Shown: piece by piece, positions 27,858-32,591 of the stretch | Layout of the letters: every line of letters starts with the position of its first letter | How positions within the stretch are numbered: position 1 is the first letter of the stretch | Assembly (NCBI RefSeq): GCF_000025285.1 | Contig: NC_013741.1 | Coordinates: forward strand, 186,001-250,000 | Reading direction: 5' to 3' | DNA: 64,000 bases | Source of the DNA: Archaeoglobus profundus DSM 5631 | GTDB taxonomy: Archaea > Halobacteriota > Archaeoglobi > Archaeoglobales > Archaeoglobaceae | Made by a program: the position numbers and the translations under genes | The notes under the pieces: generated by a model | Databases searched by the model: none | Seen by the model: the letters and a program-made list of their open reading frames with translations, nothing else | What the model was told of the DNA's origin: nothing

Positions 27858-28580
27858 TTATTTCTGAACTTTCCCTTTCCACGTTTCCTTTATTTTCTTT
27901 TTGGTAGGAATTATTTTTGCATAAGGACAATCCTTAGGCCTTGCCTCGTTTTCGGGACACAGTCCTAAGTTGTATCCTCTGCATCCAATGTTCTCGAAAA
28001 TTTCGGGGTAAATCTTCACAACGATGTCGTAAATCTTTTGAGCCAATTCACGAATTTCTGGCGCCGCCCTCTTGCATAATCTCAAACCCAAGAAGTTTAT
28101 CAATGATCTCGCATTTATAGTCCAAACATAGTGAGTGTGTGTAGCCATTGGCAGAACGTATCTCGCTACTTCTCTAGCTTTTTCCTTACTGTATCCTTTT
28201 TCAATCATTTTGTCAAATACTTTGACGTAATGCTCCCTCGCACTTTCCATAGCCTGTTTGAACATCTCAACGAGCTCAGGATCGTTTCTGATTGGAGGAG
28301 GAATTACATAGCCAAAATTCCTTTCATCATGATATCTCGTTGATCGAGCGGTATGGCTAGCAATTCTATGTTCCAAAAGCTCCCTACTTAAAGCTACACT
28401 AATTTCGCTAACATCAAAGGTAAAAACGATGTGCTCCAAAACACTGCTGTAGTCATTTTCAACAACCATCCTTACGACTTCCTCATCCGAAATGTCTGGT
28501 GGAATTCCACTAACTCTGCAGCTTTCAGCTATCAGCTTAATCCCATCTGGCGTGTATCTCAAAAGTTCAACTTTGACCAT
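27858..28580 (-). CDS. thyX: Flavin-dependent thymidylate synthase
   Basis: Makes dTMP from dUMP with FAD and methylene-tetrahydrofolate/methanopterin. The ThyX signature region reads LLEHRIASHTARSTRY (about 70-85): the usual RHR triplet is EHR here, while the S..S.R positions are kept. The later WTINARSLINFLGLRL matches the family. I start at ATG 28580 (MVKVELLRYTPDG). A longer frame to 28694 has no family match. About 240 residues. A 244 bp gap at 27614-27857 separates it from acsA and shows only weak C/D-like boxes. Confidence 0.88.
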   Translation of the reverse strand: MVKVELLRYTPDGIKLIAESCRVSGIPPDISDEEVVRMVVENDYSSVLEHIVFTFDVSEISVALSRELLEHRIASHTARSTRYHDERNFGYVIPPPIRNDPELVEMFKQAMESAREHYVKVFDKMIEKGYSKEKAREVARYVLPMATHTHYVWTINARSLINFLGLRLCKRAAPEIRELAQKIYDIVVKIYPEIFENIGCRGYNLGLCPENEARPKDCPYAKIIPTKKKIKETWKGKVQK

Positions 28581-28633
28581 GAACAGAGTTAACTGTATCA
28601 CTTTAAGGTTTTTGTCAACTTCGCTTAAATAGC

Positions 28634-29198
28634 TTAAATTATCCTCCACGGTGGAATTAGCCAAGAAACATACGAAATTATCCAAACAGCCCAAACAATA
28701 ACAGCGGTGGTAATGTTCAATGCTATTAGAAAAACAGGAACGAAAAGGAATATCAATCCCATAGACAGTTGAAAAAGGATTATTTTCCTTAGAGAGTTAT
28801 CGAATCTTGACTTAATTATAAAGCCATCCAAAATGTACATAACCAATGAAAGGTAGTATACAATGAGTACAGACGATATCGTCACTTGGTTAAATGCGTT
28901 GAGGAGCTCGTTGCACACTGCCTTATCTACTTTGAAGAAACCGCATGTATATCCCCACAAATATGATGAAGTAAAAACAGTTGTCACAAAAAATAATTGG
29001 AACACTTAAGCCAATCCATACAAGCGCGTAATTTCTAACCCAATCAACGAAATTCTCAGCTTTTCGCTCCCTGCTCAATGCCTGAGCATAAAACAGGATT
29101 ACGAATGTCAAAATTATGAAAGCTAAACCTATAAACTGAGTATGCAGGCTTACAAGGCTTAAATTTAAGTCGTGCAAACTTAAATTGGTTGCATTCAT
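28634..29198 (-). pseudogene. Membrane protein gene with a frameshift in a T6 tract
   Basis: Two overlapping frames join into one membrane protein of about 187 residues. The first (29198-28923) encodes MNATNLSLHDLNLSL, two hydrophobic helices (TQFIGLAFIILTFVILFY and ALVWIGLSVPIIF) and then loses sense. The second (from about 28985 to 28634) continues VTTVFTSSYLWGYTC, two or three more helices and ends SWLIPPWRII. The switch coincides with a run of six T on the minus strand (28988-28993). Adding one T restores the frame. No family recognised. Four bp overlap with the upstream gene at 29195 suggests coupling. Confidence 0.6.
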
Positions 29199-30379
29199 TC
29201 TATCTCCTCGTAAACCTCACTGAGTAGCTTTGCAAGTCTGACCTTAACAAAATTCTCGAACTTCTCGTTTAGCTTAATTCCTCCCTCCCTCACTTCAACC
29301 ACTCCAAGCTCTAAAGCCCTATCAAATTCTACACCCCTACCAAATCTCTTCTGAGACATATCAACTATCTCCTTGAACCTTTCAACGTAGCTCCTATCAA
29401 TTTCACAGAAACTCATGCTCGAAAGTACACTTGCTACTTCTCTCGGTGTTCTGTACACTACTCCTAAGAATGTTCCGTAAACATCGTGAACGGGACATCT
29501 GAAAGCCAAACCCATTCTTGCCAACTCTTCAAATAGCTCAACCACGTCATTGTAAAGCACGGTGTAGCAGAGGGCTGAACACAGACCTTCCAAAGGAGTT
29601 CTACCTCTTGCAAGCTTAATTAAGCTGTGAGCATCGATTCTGGCTATTAGATCATAGAAGTTTGAAGTGCTTTCGAAGTCTATATCTCTAACGACCATTC
29701 CTCTTCTATCTGATAGACCCATAACCGCTACGAAGAGCTTTCCAAAGCCGAATTTTTTTGCGATTTTGTAGATTTTACCTTCATCGATTCTATCGTAAAT
29801 GGCACATTTTGCAATTCTGACTCCATCTAAGGTTAGTGAGGCTGTAATATTCTTCGGCTTAACGATCTCCTTAGTTTCCCTTACAATTAAGCCCATCTCG
29901 TTCAGATATGGAAACAGTGCAGAATACGGGACTTTTTGCTCCGTACTCTCTAAAGCTTGACCAGCTGTGTATAGGAATACAATGGCTTCAATCAACTTCT
30001 TTCCGATCGTTCTCCCGTATCTATCGCACATGAACGCAAAAGCCTTCTCGTAGAACGCTTTATCTCGATCAACGTAACTTTTCAACCAATCTTCGTAGGG
30101 TGTGAAATCTTTGGAAAGTACCGTTGAGAATGCTCTGTGAACGTTGTCTAAAGTCGTGAAGATTACGTCATCCTCAACATTCTTGAAATTTGTAACTACT
30201 ACACATTTGCCCAACTTCCTGTACCTCTCAGCGTTGGGATGCATCGAAATATCGCAGATCAACTTCTCTCTGCCTAAGCATAAAACGTCTACCCATCCCA
30301 AGCTCGTTCTGTAATACAGCTTAGGCCTTAAGCCAGCTTCCTTCACAGAATCCTTGATATATTCCAGAATTAACCTCAT
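29195..30379 (-). CDS. Hypothetical protein with a nuclease-like N-terminal motif, coupled to SWIM protein
   Basis: 394 residues, family not recognised by name. The first 80 residues (EAGLRPKLYYRTSLGWVDVLCLG, then KLICDISMHPNAERY and GKCVVVTNF) have the order of a PD-(D/E)xK fold: GWVDV strand, then CDIS where a D/ExK would sit, but the Lys is missing, so the site may be inactive. The middle is helical with KIAKKFGFGKLFVAVMGLSDRRGMVV, and the end is a charged helical tail. It begins at the stop of the SWIM gene (ATGA overlap at 30376-30379). Confidence 0.6.
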   Translation of the reverse strand: MRLILEYIKDSVKEAGLRPKLYYRTSLGWVDVLCLGREKLICDISMHPNAERYRKLGKCVVVTNFKNVEDDVIFTTLDNVHRAFSTVLSKDFTPYEDWLKSYVDRDKAFYEKAFAFMCDRYGRTIGKKLIEAIVFLYTAGQALESTEQKVPYSALFPYLNEMGLIVRETKEIVKPKNITASLTLDGVRIAKCAIYDRIDEGKIYKIAKKFGFGKLFVAVMGLSDRRGMVVRDIDFESTSNFYDLIARIDAHSLIKLARGRTPLEGLCSALCYTVLYNDVVELFEELARMGLAFRCPVHDVYGTFLGVVYRTPREVASVLSSMSFCEIDRSYVERFKEIVDMSQKRFGRGVEFDRALELGVVEVREGGIKLNEKFENFVKVRLAKLLSEVYEEIE

Positions 30380-30708
30380 TTCGACACCTCTAAGTAGTCA
30401 ATATAATAAGCATCGACAAAATCGTAGAGGTTAAGCCTTTTGGCAACTTCAACTGCTATAATGTGGGCACACGGCTTTTGGAACTTGAGATTGAGTTGAA
30501 AGTCCCTACATGTGCAAAACCATTCATCAACTATGTACTCTTCACCGCCTACAACGATAAAGAAGTCTTTATACTTCTTTACTCTTCTTTCCACAACGTA
30601 TCTGAACGCCTTTTTTCCTCTCTTCCCGTAAAATCTAACAAGAGCTTTGTAGAGATCGAGACTTAAGCCTTTCTTGAGAGCCTCCTCAACTTCTCTAACC
30701 AATTCCAC
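30376..30708 (-). CDS. SWIM zinc-finger protein
   Basis: 110 residues. The SWIM pattern CxC-x-CxH is clear: WFCTCRDFQLNLKFQKPCAHIIAVEVA (about 70-96). The N-terminal half is helical and basic (RFYGKRGKKAFRYVVERRVKKY). SWIM proteins bind DNA or partner recombinases in archaea and eukaryotes. Overlap with the next gene by 4 bp strongly suggests a two-protein unit. Divergent from the S16 protease. Confidence 0.82.
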   Translation of the reverse strand: MELVREVEEALKKGLSLDLYKALVRFYGKRGKKAFRYVVERRVKKYKDFFIVVGGEEYIVDEWFCTCRDFQLNLKFQKPCAHIIAVEVAKRLNLYDFVDAYYIDYLEVSK

Positions 30709-30761: not shown

Positions 30762-32591
30762 ATGAAGAAGGCAGTAATTCTATTGCTGGCATTCATGCTA
30801 ATTATCTTTCCAGTGAACGCAAAGACCGTTAACATAAAAGCAGTTGCTGTTAAGAGCGGTGAGAAGCCAGAAGGAGCTGTTATAGATATAACCGTAACAG
30901 TCACAGACGGTGAAGGAAAAGTCTTCGTTTCAACTTCGCCATACACAGAGATAGATATGCAGGGATCGGCTCAACTTGCAGCTTTAACCGCTTGCGATCT
31001 CTTAGGGCTGGATTTTACGAAGTACAACTTCTATTACGAAATAGAGGCGGATGCACCAATCGTCGGAGGTCCTTCGGCTGGCGGAGTCATGACAGTTGCA
31101 ACAATCTGTGTCCTCAAGAATCTCACACCCAGAAGCGATGTATTCATGACCGGAATGATATACCCTGATGGATATATAGGCCCAGTTGGCGGTATTCCTT
31201 ACAAGCTTGAAGCTGCTGCCAAATCAGGGGCAAAAATATTTCTGATTCCAGAAGGACAGAGAATAGTTTACATAACTAAGACAGTTGAAGAGAAGAAAGG
31301 ACCATTCGTCTTCATAAGGCAGGTTACCGAGCCTGTTGATGTTGTGGAGCTTGGAAAGAATTTGGGCGTTAAAGTAATAGAAGTTGAGACGATTGAACAA
31401 GCTCTGTGGTATTACACTGGCTATACAATTTCGAAACCACAGCTGAAAATAAATCTAGCCAAGTATTCTGATATTTTGAAGATTCTTGCAACAAAGATGG
31501 AAAACGAGACGATAAATCTCAGGAATGTTGTTGGTGAGGTTAAAGAGGCTGATGAACTGATTGAGAAAGCCAAAAGGCATCTGGAAGAGAGGTATTACTA
31601 CACGGCAACATCTGAATTCTTTCAGGCGAAAATAATTCTAAGAAAGGAATATTATTCAAAAACTTTGAAGAGTGATGAAGACTTAGAGAATGCGTTTAAG
31701 GACGTCGAATCTGAGATAGCAGAACTCAAGAACTACCTTAGGGAAGTCGAGGACAATGTGGGTGTTGAGTCATTCCAGATAGTGGGTGCTGGGGAGGAGA
31801 GAGTTGCATGGGCTGAGAAGTACCTTGAGAATGCCAAGGCATCTGGAAATTGGTACTCCGCTATAGACTATTTGGCTCTTGCGAAGGAGAGAGTCGAGAG
31901 TGCTAAAGTCTGGCTTTCCCTACTTCAAACGATAGAGGAAGATGTTCCTCTAAATAAAGGGGAGTTAAAGAAGAGGACTGAATTCTACATAAGAATAGTG
32001 CAGTCTCTGATAGTCTACGCAAATTCAGTAGGAGGGTATAGCAACTTGATAGATCGGGCGGAGCAGTCCCTCCAAATAGCTCAGAATCTCTACAATGATG
32101 GATTCTACTCTGGAGCCCAGATAGCATGTATGGATTCGATGGTGGAGGCTGGTTTGGCTGTAGAACTGATCGCTCCGAGTAGTGTTTTTGAGGACATTTT
32201 GAAGTCAAAGCTTGAAAGGGTAGAAAAAGCAGCAGAAACTTCTATAGCTGAAATAGAGCAAGCTGTAACGCCAATACTCCCCGTTGCATACTTCGAATTT
32301 GCAAAGAGCTATTATGAAAGCTATATGAGTACAAACGATGTTAGAGATGCCGTCTACGCTCTGATATACTACAAGCTCTCAGAGAGGTTAGCTAAAGTCA
32401 TGCTACTGGTTTCAAAGGCTTACGAGGAGAGGCAAATTATCAAGACGGAAATTCCACCATTTACGCCTTCAGAGTATAGCAAGACATCGATAGAAAGGAT
32501 AGAGTACATAGAAGTCCCGGGATATTCTGCTCTAGTCTGTGTAATTGCAGTGGGATTAGCATACTATAAGCGCAAGAAGTCCAGAAGATAA
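30762..32591 (+). CDS. Membrane-anchored Lon-like S16 protease without ATPase domain
   Basis: 609 residues. A signal-like N-terminus (MKKAVILLLAFMLIIFPVNA) is followed by an S16 peptidase domain with catalytic Ser in GPSAGGVMTVA (about 108) and catalytic Lys in GPVGGIPYKLEAAAKSG (about 148-151). A long helical segment (about 230-560, EKAKRHLEER, AEQSLQIAQNLYNDG) follows, ending in a C-terminal membrane helix (YSALVCVIAVGLAYYKRKK). No AAA+ domain, unlike LonB. The catalytic domain should face outside. The family is known in archaea but its targets are not. Confidence 0.88.
   Translation: MKKAVILLLAFMLIIFPVNAKTVNIKAVAVKSGEKPEGAVIDITVTVTDGEGKVFVSTSPYTEIDMQGSAQLAALTACDLLGLDFTKYNFYYEIEADAPIVGGPSAGGVMTVATICVLKNLTPRSDVFMTGMIYPDGYIGPVGGIPYKLEAAAKSGAKIFLIPEGQRIVYITKTVEEKKGPFVFIRQVTEPVDVVELGKNLGVKVIEVETIEQALWYYTGYTISKPQLKINLAKYSDILKILATKMENETINLRNVVGEVKEADELIEKAKRHLEERYYYTATSEFFQAKIILRKEYYSKTLKSDEDLENAFKDVESEIAELKNYLREVEDNVGVESFQIVGAGEERVAWAEKYLENAKASGNWYSAIDYLALAKERVESAKVWLSLLQTIEEDVPLNKGELKKRTEFYIRIVQSLIVYANSVGGYSNLIDRAEQSLQIAQNLYNDGFYSGAQIACMDSMVEAGLAVELIAPSSVFEDILKSKLERVEKAAETSIAEIEQAVTPILPVAYFEFAKSYYESYMSTNDVRDAVYALIYYKLSERLAKVMLLVSKAYEERQIIKTEIPPFTPSEYSKTSIERIEYIEVPGYSALVCVIAVGLAYYKRKKSRR

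Follow-up and report, generated by a model that had tools for sequence, protein, structure and literature searches.

What does a small SWIM zinc-finger protein do next to an unnamed, nuclease-like neighbor whose gene overlaps its own? The question arises in 64,000 nucleotides of the Archaeoglobus profundus DSM 5631 genome (NC_013741.1, positions 186,001 to 250,000), hereafter the window. From its letters and open reading frames, a sequence-only reading had proposed an uncharacterized DNA repair unit, possibly including a downstream membrane gene.

The SWIM gene and the gene that overlaps it

The SWIM protein (110 aa, GTG start) is encoded on the minus strand at 30376..30708. In a Pfam search it matched PF04434 with an E-value of 3.2e-8 and a score of 33.4 bits (cut-off 19.6), and it carries the finger motif C-x-C-x(12)-C-A-H-I-I-A. 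Its identity as a SWIM zinc-finger protein was thus confirmed. A search of the whole genome returned this gene as the only match above the cut-off. The zinc ligands CxC...CxH, within the motif CXC...CXHXXA, were present in all 42 homologs examined, a count that omits the 5 of 47 loci where no SWIM gene was called. The gene was found in 49 of the 60 genomes sampled around the window lineage, including all 18 of those that bear the partner, and its dN/dS was 0.028-0.048 in four pairs from the sister genus (g9). The PDB chains returned by a 22-row profile at E-values up to 10 included no SWIM protein, and a literature search found no work on the function of the archaeal SWIM protein, on DUF2150 or on the partner family. 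In eukaryotes, Shu2/SWS1-type SWIM proteins, which carry the motif CXC...CXHXXA, act with RAD51 paralogs, according to the available portion of PMC6316741. By analogy, the SWIM protein may have a role in recombination in these archaea.

The partner gene (29195..30379, minus strand; 394 aa) follows the SWIM gene. The two overlap by four bases, as the sequence-only reading had described; these are ATGA at 30376..30379, in which the SWIM stop and the partner start lie. In the window genus, this overlap may allow translational coupling of the two proteins. That the partner might be a pseudogene is made unlikely by open reading frames and a low dN/dS (see below).

Two other features flank the pair. 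Divergent from the SWIM gene by 53 bp, a plus-strand gene at 30762-32591 encodes 609 residues that include a protease domain of the Lon type (S16; PF05362, E 2.1e-10); the profile libraries recognized no ATPase part in this protein. On the other side, the stretch 28634-29198 (minus strand) contains two membrane ORFs that overlap in separate reading frames and are possibly one frameshifted gene. The ORF at 28923-29198 shares ATGA (29195-29198) with the partner gene. The sister genome has no counterpart of this gene between the partner and thyX. Moreover, the second ORF, of 123 aa, matched 2 of 40 genomes, namely its own and another in which the match (E 0.009) contained two stops, leaving no convincing homolog in the 39 other genomes. 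The membrane ORFs (123 aa and 91 aa) were therefore rejected as part of the unit, and their suggested membership gained no support.

Predicted folds, catalytic residues and selection in the partner

The partner family has no name in Pfam, NCBIfam or PADLOC, and PDB sequence profiles returned no significant match. Its N-terminus gave weak, sub-significant matches to PDDEXK_4 (E 0.12) and MTES_1575 (E 0.1 and 0.038), which were used as leads only. A model of the whole protein, built from 9 sequences (pLDDT 80.5, pTM 0.79), has an alpha/beta N-domain followed by a helical part with winged-helix signatures. Foldseek with this model yielded no match with E <0.001; most rows were of low probability and were not used.

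VIA gave matches to separate parts of the protein, with the proviso that Z scores of 7-9 lie near the level that the tool calls common. Residues 1-90 (30110..30379) aligned with the VC1899 nuclease domain (1xmx) at Z 7.5 (rmsd 2.8, 90 aligned). Residues 104-203 aligned with the MarR-type protein 4hqm at Z 8.7 (rmsd 3.1, 89 aligned), with 4yif at the same Z of 8.7 and with the archaeal RosR, 6qfd, at Z 8.6 (rmsd 2.5, 79 aligned); we place the putative MarR-like winged helix at residues 106-201 (29777..30064). The N-domain was also modeled alone from an ortholog (L068) that has 34% overall identity with the window protein (pLDDT 84.8, pTM 0.76). Its elements follow the order alpha-beta-beta-beta-alpha-beta and, by DSSP, this core of PD-(D/E)xK nucleases is present in the models of both the window protein and the ortholog. 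The top Foldseek match of the ortholog domain was Tk-TIP26 (2czr; E 2.2e-3, prob 1.00). Its VIA list was filled by proteins of the restriction-endonuclease (REase) fold: AF1548 (1y88; Z 9.4, rmsd 2.9, 92 aligned), Tk-TIP26 (Z 8.7, rmsd 2.9, 84 aligned), NucS/EndoMS (2vld and 5gke; Z 8.0 and 7.2), VRR_NUC (Z 7.4) and Can1 (6sce; Z 7.3). Hjc-type nucleases reached up to Z 6.4, and Bax1 with XPB reached Z 6.0. Residues 1-90 are thus predicted to adopt a PD-(D/E)xK fold.

The C-terminal half of the partner appears winged-helix-like, as judged from the secondary structure of the model. Specifically, DSSP assigned H262-272, H276-288, E293-298, E304-310 and H313-322 within residues 261-325 (29405..29599). 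This segment is the most conserved stretch of the family (0.534), and the best-conserved columns, positions 314, 302 and 286 (each 28/28), fall in the same half.

The N-domain is less uniform at the positions that matter for cleavage. The window protein has D31 ... D43-I-S45, the (D/E)xK-like order lacking the Lys that the sequence-only reading had noticed. An Asp at D31, presumed to be structurally equivalent to that of motif II, is kept in 19 of 28 rows and replaced in 6; in 2 rows (G007 and G027) it is gone together with the whole N-domain, and 1 row (G234) lies outside the ORF call. The motif III Lys is absent from all 20 rows in which the preceding acid is retained; its place is taken by S, G, C, L, F, Y or T. 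Six rows of the family have lost the acids. Because the Lys is absent, because the acids or the domain are lost in 8 rows, and because the winged-helix part rather than the nuclease domain is best conserved, the proposed nuclease or repair activity is unsupported. Catalysis by the partner is unlikely, judging from these residues. Some PD-(D/E)xK enzymes have other residues in place of the Lys, and D31 and the motif III acid are retained by 19-20 of the 28 rows; some residual nuclease activity may therefore persist. Pure structural drift would not predict that retention. For comparison, the nuclease site of Can1 comprises Glu541, Asp543, Glu560 and Lys562, as given in the available portion of PMC6981274. 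By analogy, the window partner would keep two of these four residues.

The partner is under strong purifying selection throughout. For three g9 pairs whose partner lies beside SWIM, whole-gene dN/dS was 0.085, 0.068 and 0.088, and that of the N-domain was 0.084, 0.091 and 0.13. Five g5 pairs gave whole-gene values of 0.089, 0.16, 0.087, 0.039 and 0.109. Indeed, dN/dS was low in every domain; an N-domain value of 0.572 for G026-G174, with a dS of only 0.04, was out of line and was not relied on. Whole-gene values could be computed for these pairs, synonymous sites being saturated in the remaining ones, including G000-G002. The low values indicate that the N-domain, non-canonical as it is, is still under purifying selection and so is presumably kept for something.

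Distribution and surroundings of the two genes

With the window protein as the sole query, the partner was matched in 18 of 60 related genomes. With a 12-row profile, 27 of the 392 genomes searched in the phylum gave a match, and all 27 belong to Archaeoglobaceae. A single-sequence scan of genome contigs gave no match; an alignment-based scan gave 8 loci, which were judged to belong to genomes already counted and were not counted twice. A pattern scan of 2.9 million viral contigs found no relative. In 6 of these 27 genomes, the partner is the immediate neighbor of SWIM: G000 and G002 in the window genus (g1), and G010, G020, G035 and G275 in g9. A seventh near case is G009 (g8), where DUF2150, SWIM, TrmO/Dcd and partner follow one another on a single strand, closely spaced or overlapping, so that one gene separates the partner from SWIM upstream of it. 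In the other 20 genomes, no SWIM gene was found in the stretch around the partner, some of these stretches ending at contig ends; for 12 of the 20, SWIM is on another contig or >500 kb away.

The sequence-only reading had named two outcomes that would count against it, a predicted structure with no nuclease fold and a pair that never co-occurs elsewhere. Neither was found: as described above, a REase-like fold is predicted, and the SWIM-partner order recurs in five other genomes. As the partner proteins of those genomes are only ~30-57% identical to that of the window, the pairing is more than chance. It is not much stronger than the background of local gene order, since thyX, acs and two further genes also stay together near the pair between g1 and g9 in the local stretch compared. 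Adjacency alone therefore says little. A strictly obligatory unit is unsupported, given the 20 of 27 partners without SWIM in their stretch and the 31 of 49 SWIM genomes without a partner; any joint action with SWIM would be lineage-specific at best.

The surroundings of SWIM were read at 47 loci, representing 6 + 40 of the 49 SWIM genomes plus L069 (G275), with three of the 49 left out; a SWIM gene was called in 42 of the loci. A DUF2150 cluster with 30 members normally lies just upstream of SWIM, and a cluster of dCTP deaminase or TrmO-dCTP deaminase with 27 members normally lies just downstream. In more distant archaea, NIF3 and MoaA-like genes adjoin SWIM instead. In g9, the partner occupies the usual deaminase place, and a gap of 24-26 bp, with no overlap, separates it from SWIM. 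In the window genome, DUF2150 is ~1 Mb from SWIM, and the pair is kept in g1 though DUF2150 is elsewhere. The run in the sister genome G002 is SWIM, partner and thyX. Considered against the usual company of SWIM, the distribution of the partner suggests that it joined an old gene run late and locally. No recombinase-paralog gene was recognized among the identified neighbors of SWIM, most neighbors being without annotation.

Two further observations concern these surroundings. SWIM is repeatedly found beside DNA-precursor genes, namely dCTP deaminase in most Archaeoglobaceae and, in the window genus, thyX, which follows the partner (27858-30708 in the window). In part of the Archaeoglobaceae, a conserved ~280-aa protein that reads like a multi-pass transporter lies downstream of the SWIM-deaminase run (L110, L113, L119, L121, L124, L125 and L127).

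The genome of the window also encodes a distant partner paralog of 490 aa (contig C1, L020:5060-6532), which keeps ...RID...IGIEIT. Nearby are a gene for an archaeal phage integrase (PF16795, E 6.8e-63) and a UDG-like ORF whose match to PF03167 (E 0.0013) falls below the cut-off. This neighborhood is possibly an integrated element; no tRNA was found within 12 kb around the paralog. In a midpoint-rooted tree of 28 partner rows, where the paralog branch is long, the six SWIM-adjacent partners formed one clade (support 99/97), with the G009 partner elsewhere.

A proposed regulator-like role and its comparison with known systems

Based on the gene arrangement, predicted folds, loss of the Lys, purifying selection and distribution, we lean towards the partner being a non-cleaving, DNA-binding, regulator-like protein that is locally coupled to the ancient SWIM protein. 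The partner would bind DNA without cutting it. Its N-domain, a nuclease fold from which part of the catalytic set has gone, may now serve as a surface for contacting DNA or protein, and the main DNA contact would be made by the MarR-like winged helix and the second winged-helix-like half. In the window genus and one sister genus, where the partner gene directly follows the SWIM gene, the two would be co-transcribed and made together and may act on one DNA or complex. In such a role, DNA binding by the partner would serve to regulate expression or to help a complex that processes DNA; similar non-catalytic folds are used in this way by Tk-TIP26 and by Can1 in its nuclease-like domain.

The strongest competitor, to which we give about one chance in a few, is that a single event placed the partner gene downstream of SWIM, the two having no more than a promoter in common. 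One such event suffices to explain a single clade of six adjacent partners, and the 20 unlinked partners, the other local genes kept together between the two genera and the gap in place of an overlap in g9 all fit it. It accounts less well for g1, where the two overlapping genes remain paired although DUF2150 lies elsewhere, and for G009, a member of another clade whose SWIM run also includes the partner, one gene downstream. We consider it improbable that SWIM and partner form a DNA repair unit in which the partner is a nuclease or junction-binding factor working with a recombinase. Here the SWIM motif, of the type found in the RAD51-paralog helpers Shu2/SWS1 (in the part of PMC6316741 available) and present in 42/42 archaeal homologs, and the fold matches to NucS/EndoMS, Hjc-type nucleases and Bax1 with XPB have to be set against the Lys that no member with the motif has, the N-domain lost or stripped of acids in 8/28 rows, the lack of a recognized recombinase-paralog neighbor and the many SWIM genomes that do without a partner. 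Since the nuclease fold lacks a key catalytic residue, we read the pair as a DNA-binding or regulatory one rather than as DNA-cutting repair machinery.

Two other readings would each surprise us. In one, SWIM and partner form an archaeal SWIM-mediator complex in which an ancient Shu2/SWS1-type protein acts with a nuclease-fold/winged-helix partner that binds but does not cut DNA and takes the place of the RAD51 paralog. If true, it would be a recombination or transcription accessory complex with a make-up not known elsewhere. In the other, to which we give the least weight, the partner family stems from a mobile element or defense gene domesticated in Archaeoglobaceae, and its adjacency to SWIM is incidental. 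The integrase and UDG-like ORF near the distant paralog and the patchy distribution point that way, while the empty search of viral contigs, the absence of a PADLOC match, the lack of a tRNA near the paralog and the strong purifying selection on the partner point away from it.

The lineage with overlapping genes offers a concrete handle, through pull-downs, on a widespread archaeal SWIM protein. Archaeal SWIM shares the motif CXC...CXHXXA with Shu2/SWS1; no sequence match to a solved Shu2/SWS1 was found, and no RAD51-paralog neighbor was recognized. The partner itself is an unnamed architecture, a nuclease fold without the full catalytic set that is under purifying selection beside winged helices. 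AF1548, of unknown function, is the best VIA match of the ortholog N-domain, but no sequence match between it and the partner was found. NucS/EndoMS, a mismatch endonuclease, has the fold of that domain, whereas the partner lacks the catalytic Lys and its other domains differ. MarR regulators, including RosR, have a winged helix like that of residues 106-201, which in the partner is one module of a larger protein.

A regulatory parallel is Tk-TIP26, an archaeal TBP-interacting protein with a similar N-terminal REase-like domain; the title of its PDB entry refers to inhibition of the interaction between TBP and TATA-DNA. Unlike it, the partner has winged helices downstream of this domain. 2czr was not among the PDB sequence matches of the partner, no TIP profile matched in Pfam, and TIP is reported as Thermococci-specific in the available portion of PMC1852104. 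The DUF1887 proteins Can1, Can2 and VC1899 resemble the partner in fold, but the partner has no recognized CARF domain, fewer catalytic residues and no PADLOC match. According to the available portion of PMC6981274, domain 2 of Can1 superimposes on nucleases and has no active site, yet activity depends on its basic residues. This domain is thus a precedent for a non-catalytic copy of a nuclease fold, and the partner would be another case of such a fold reused for binding.
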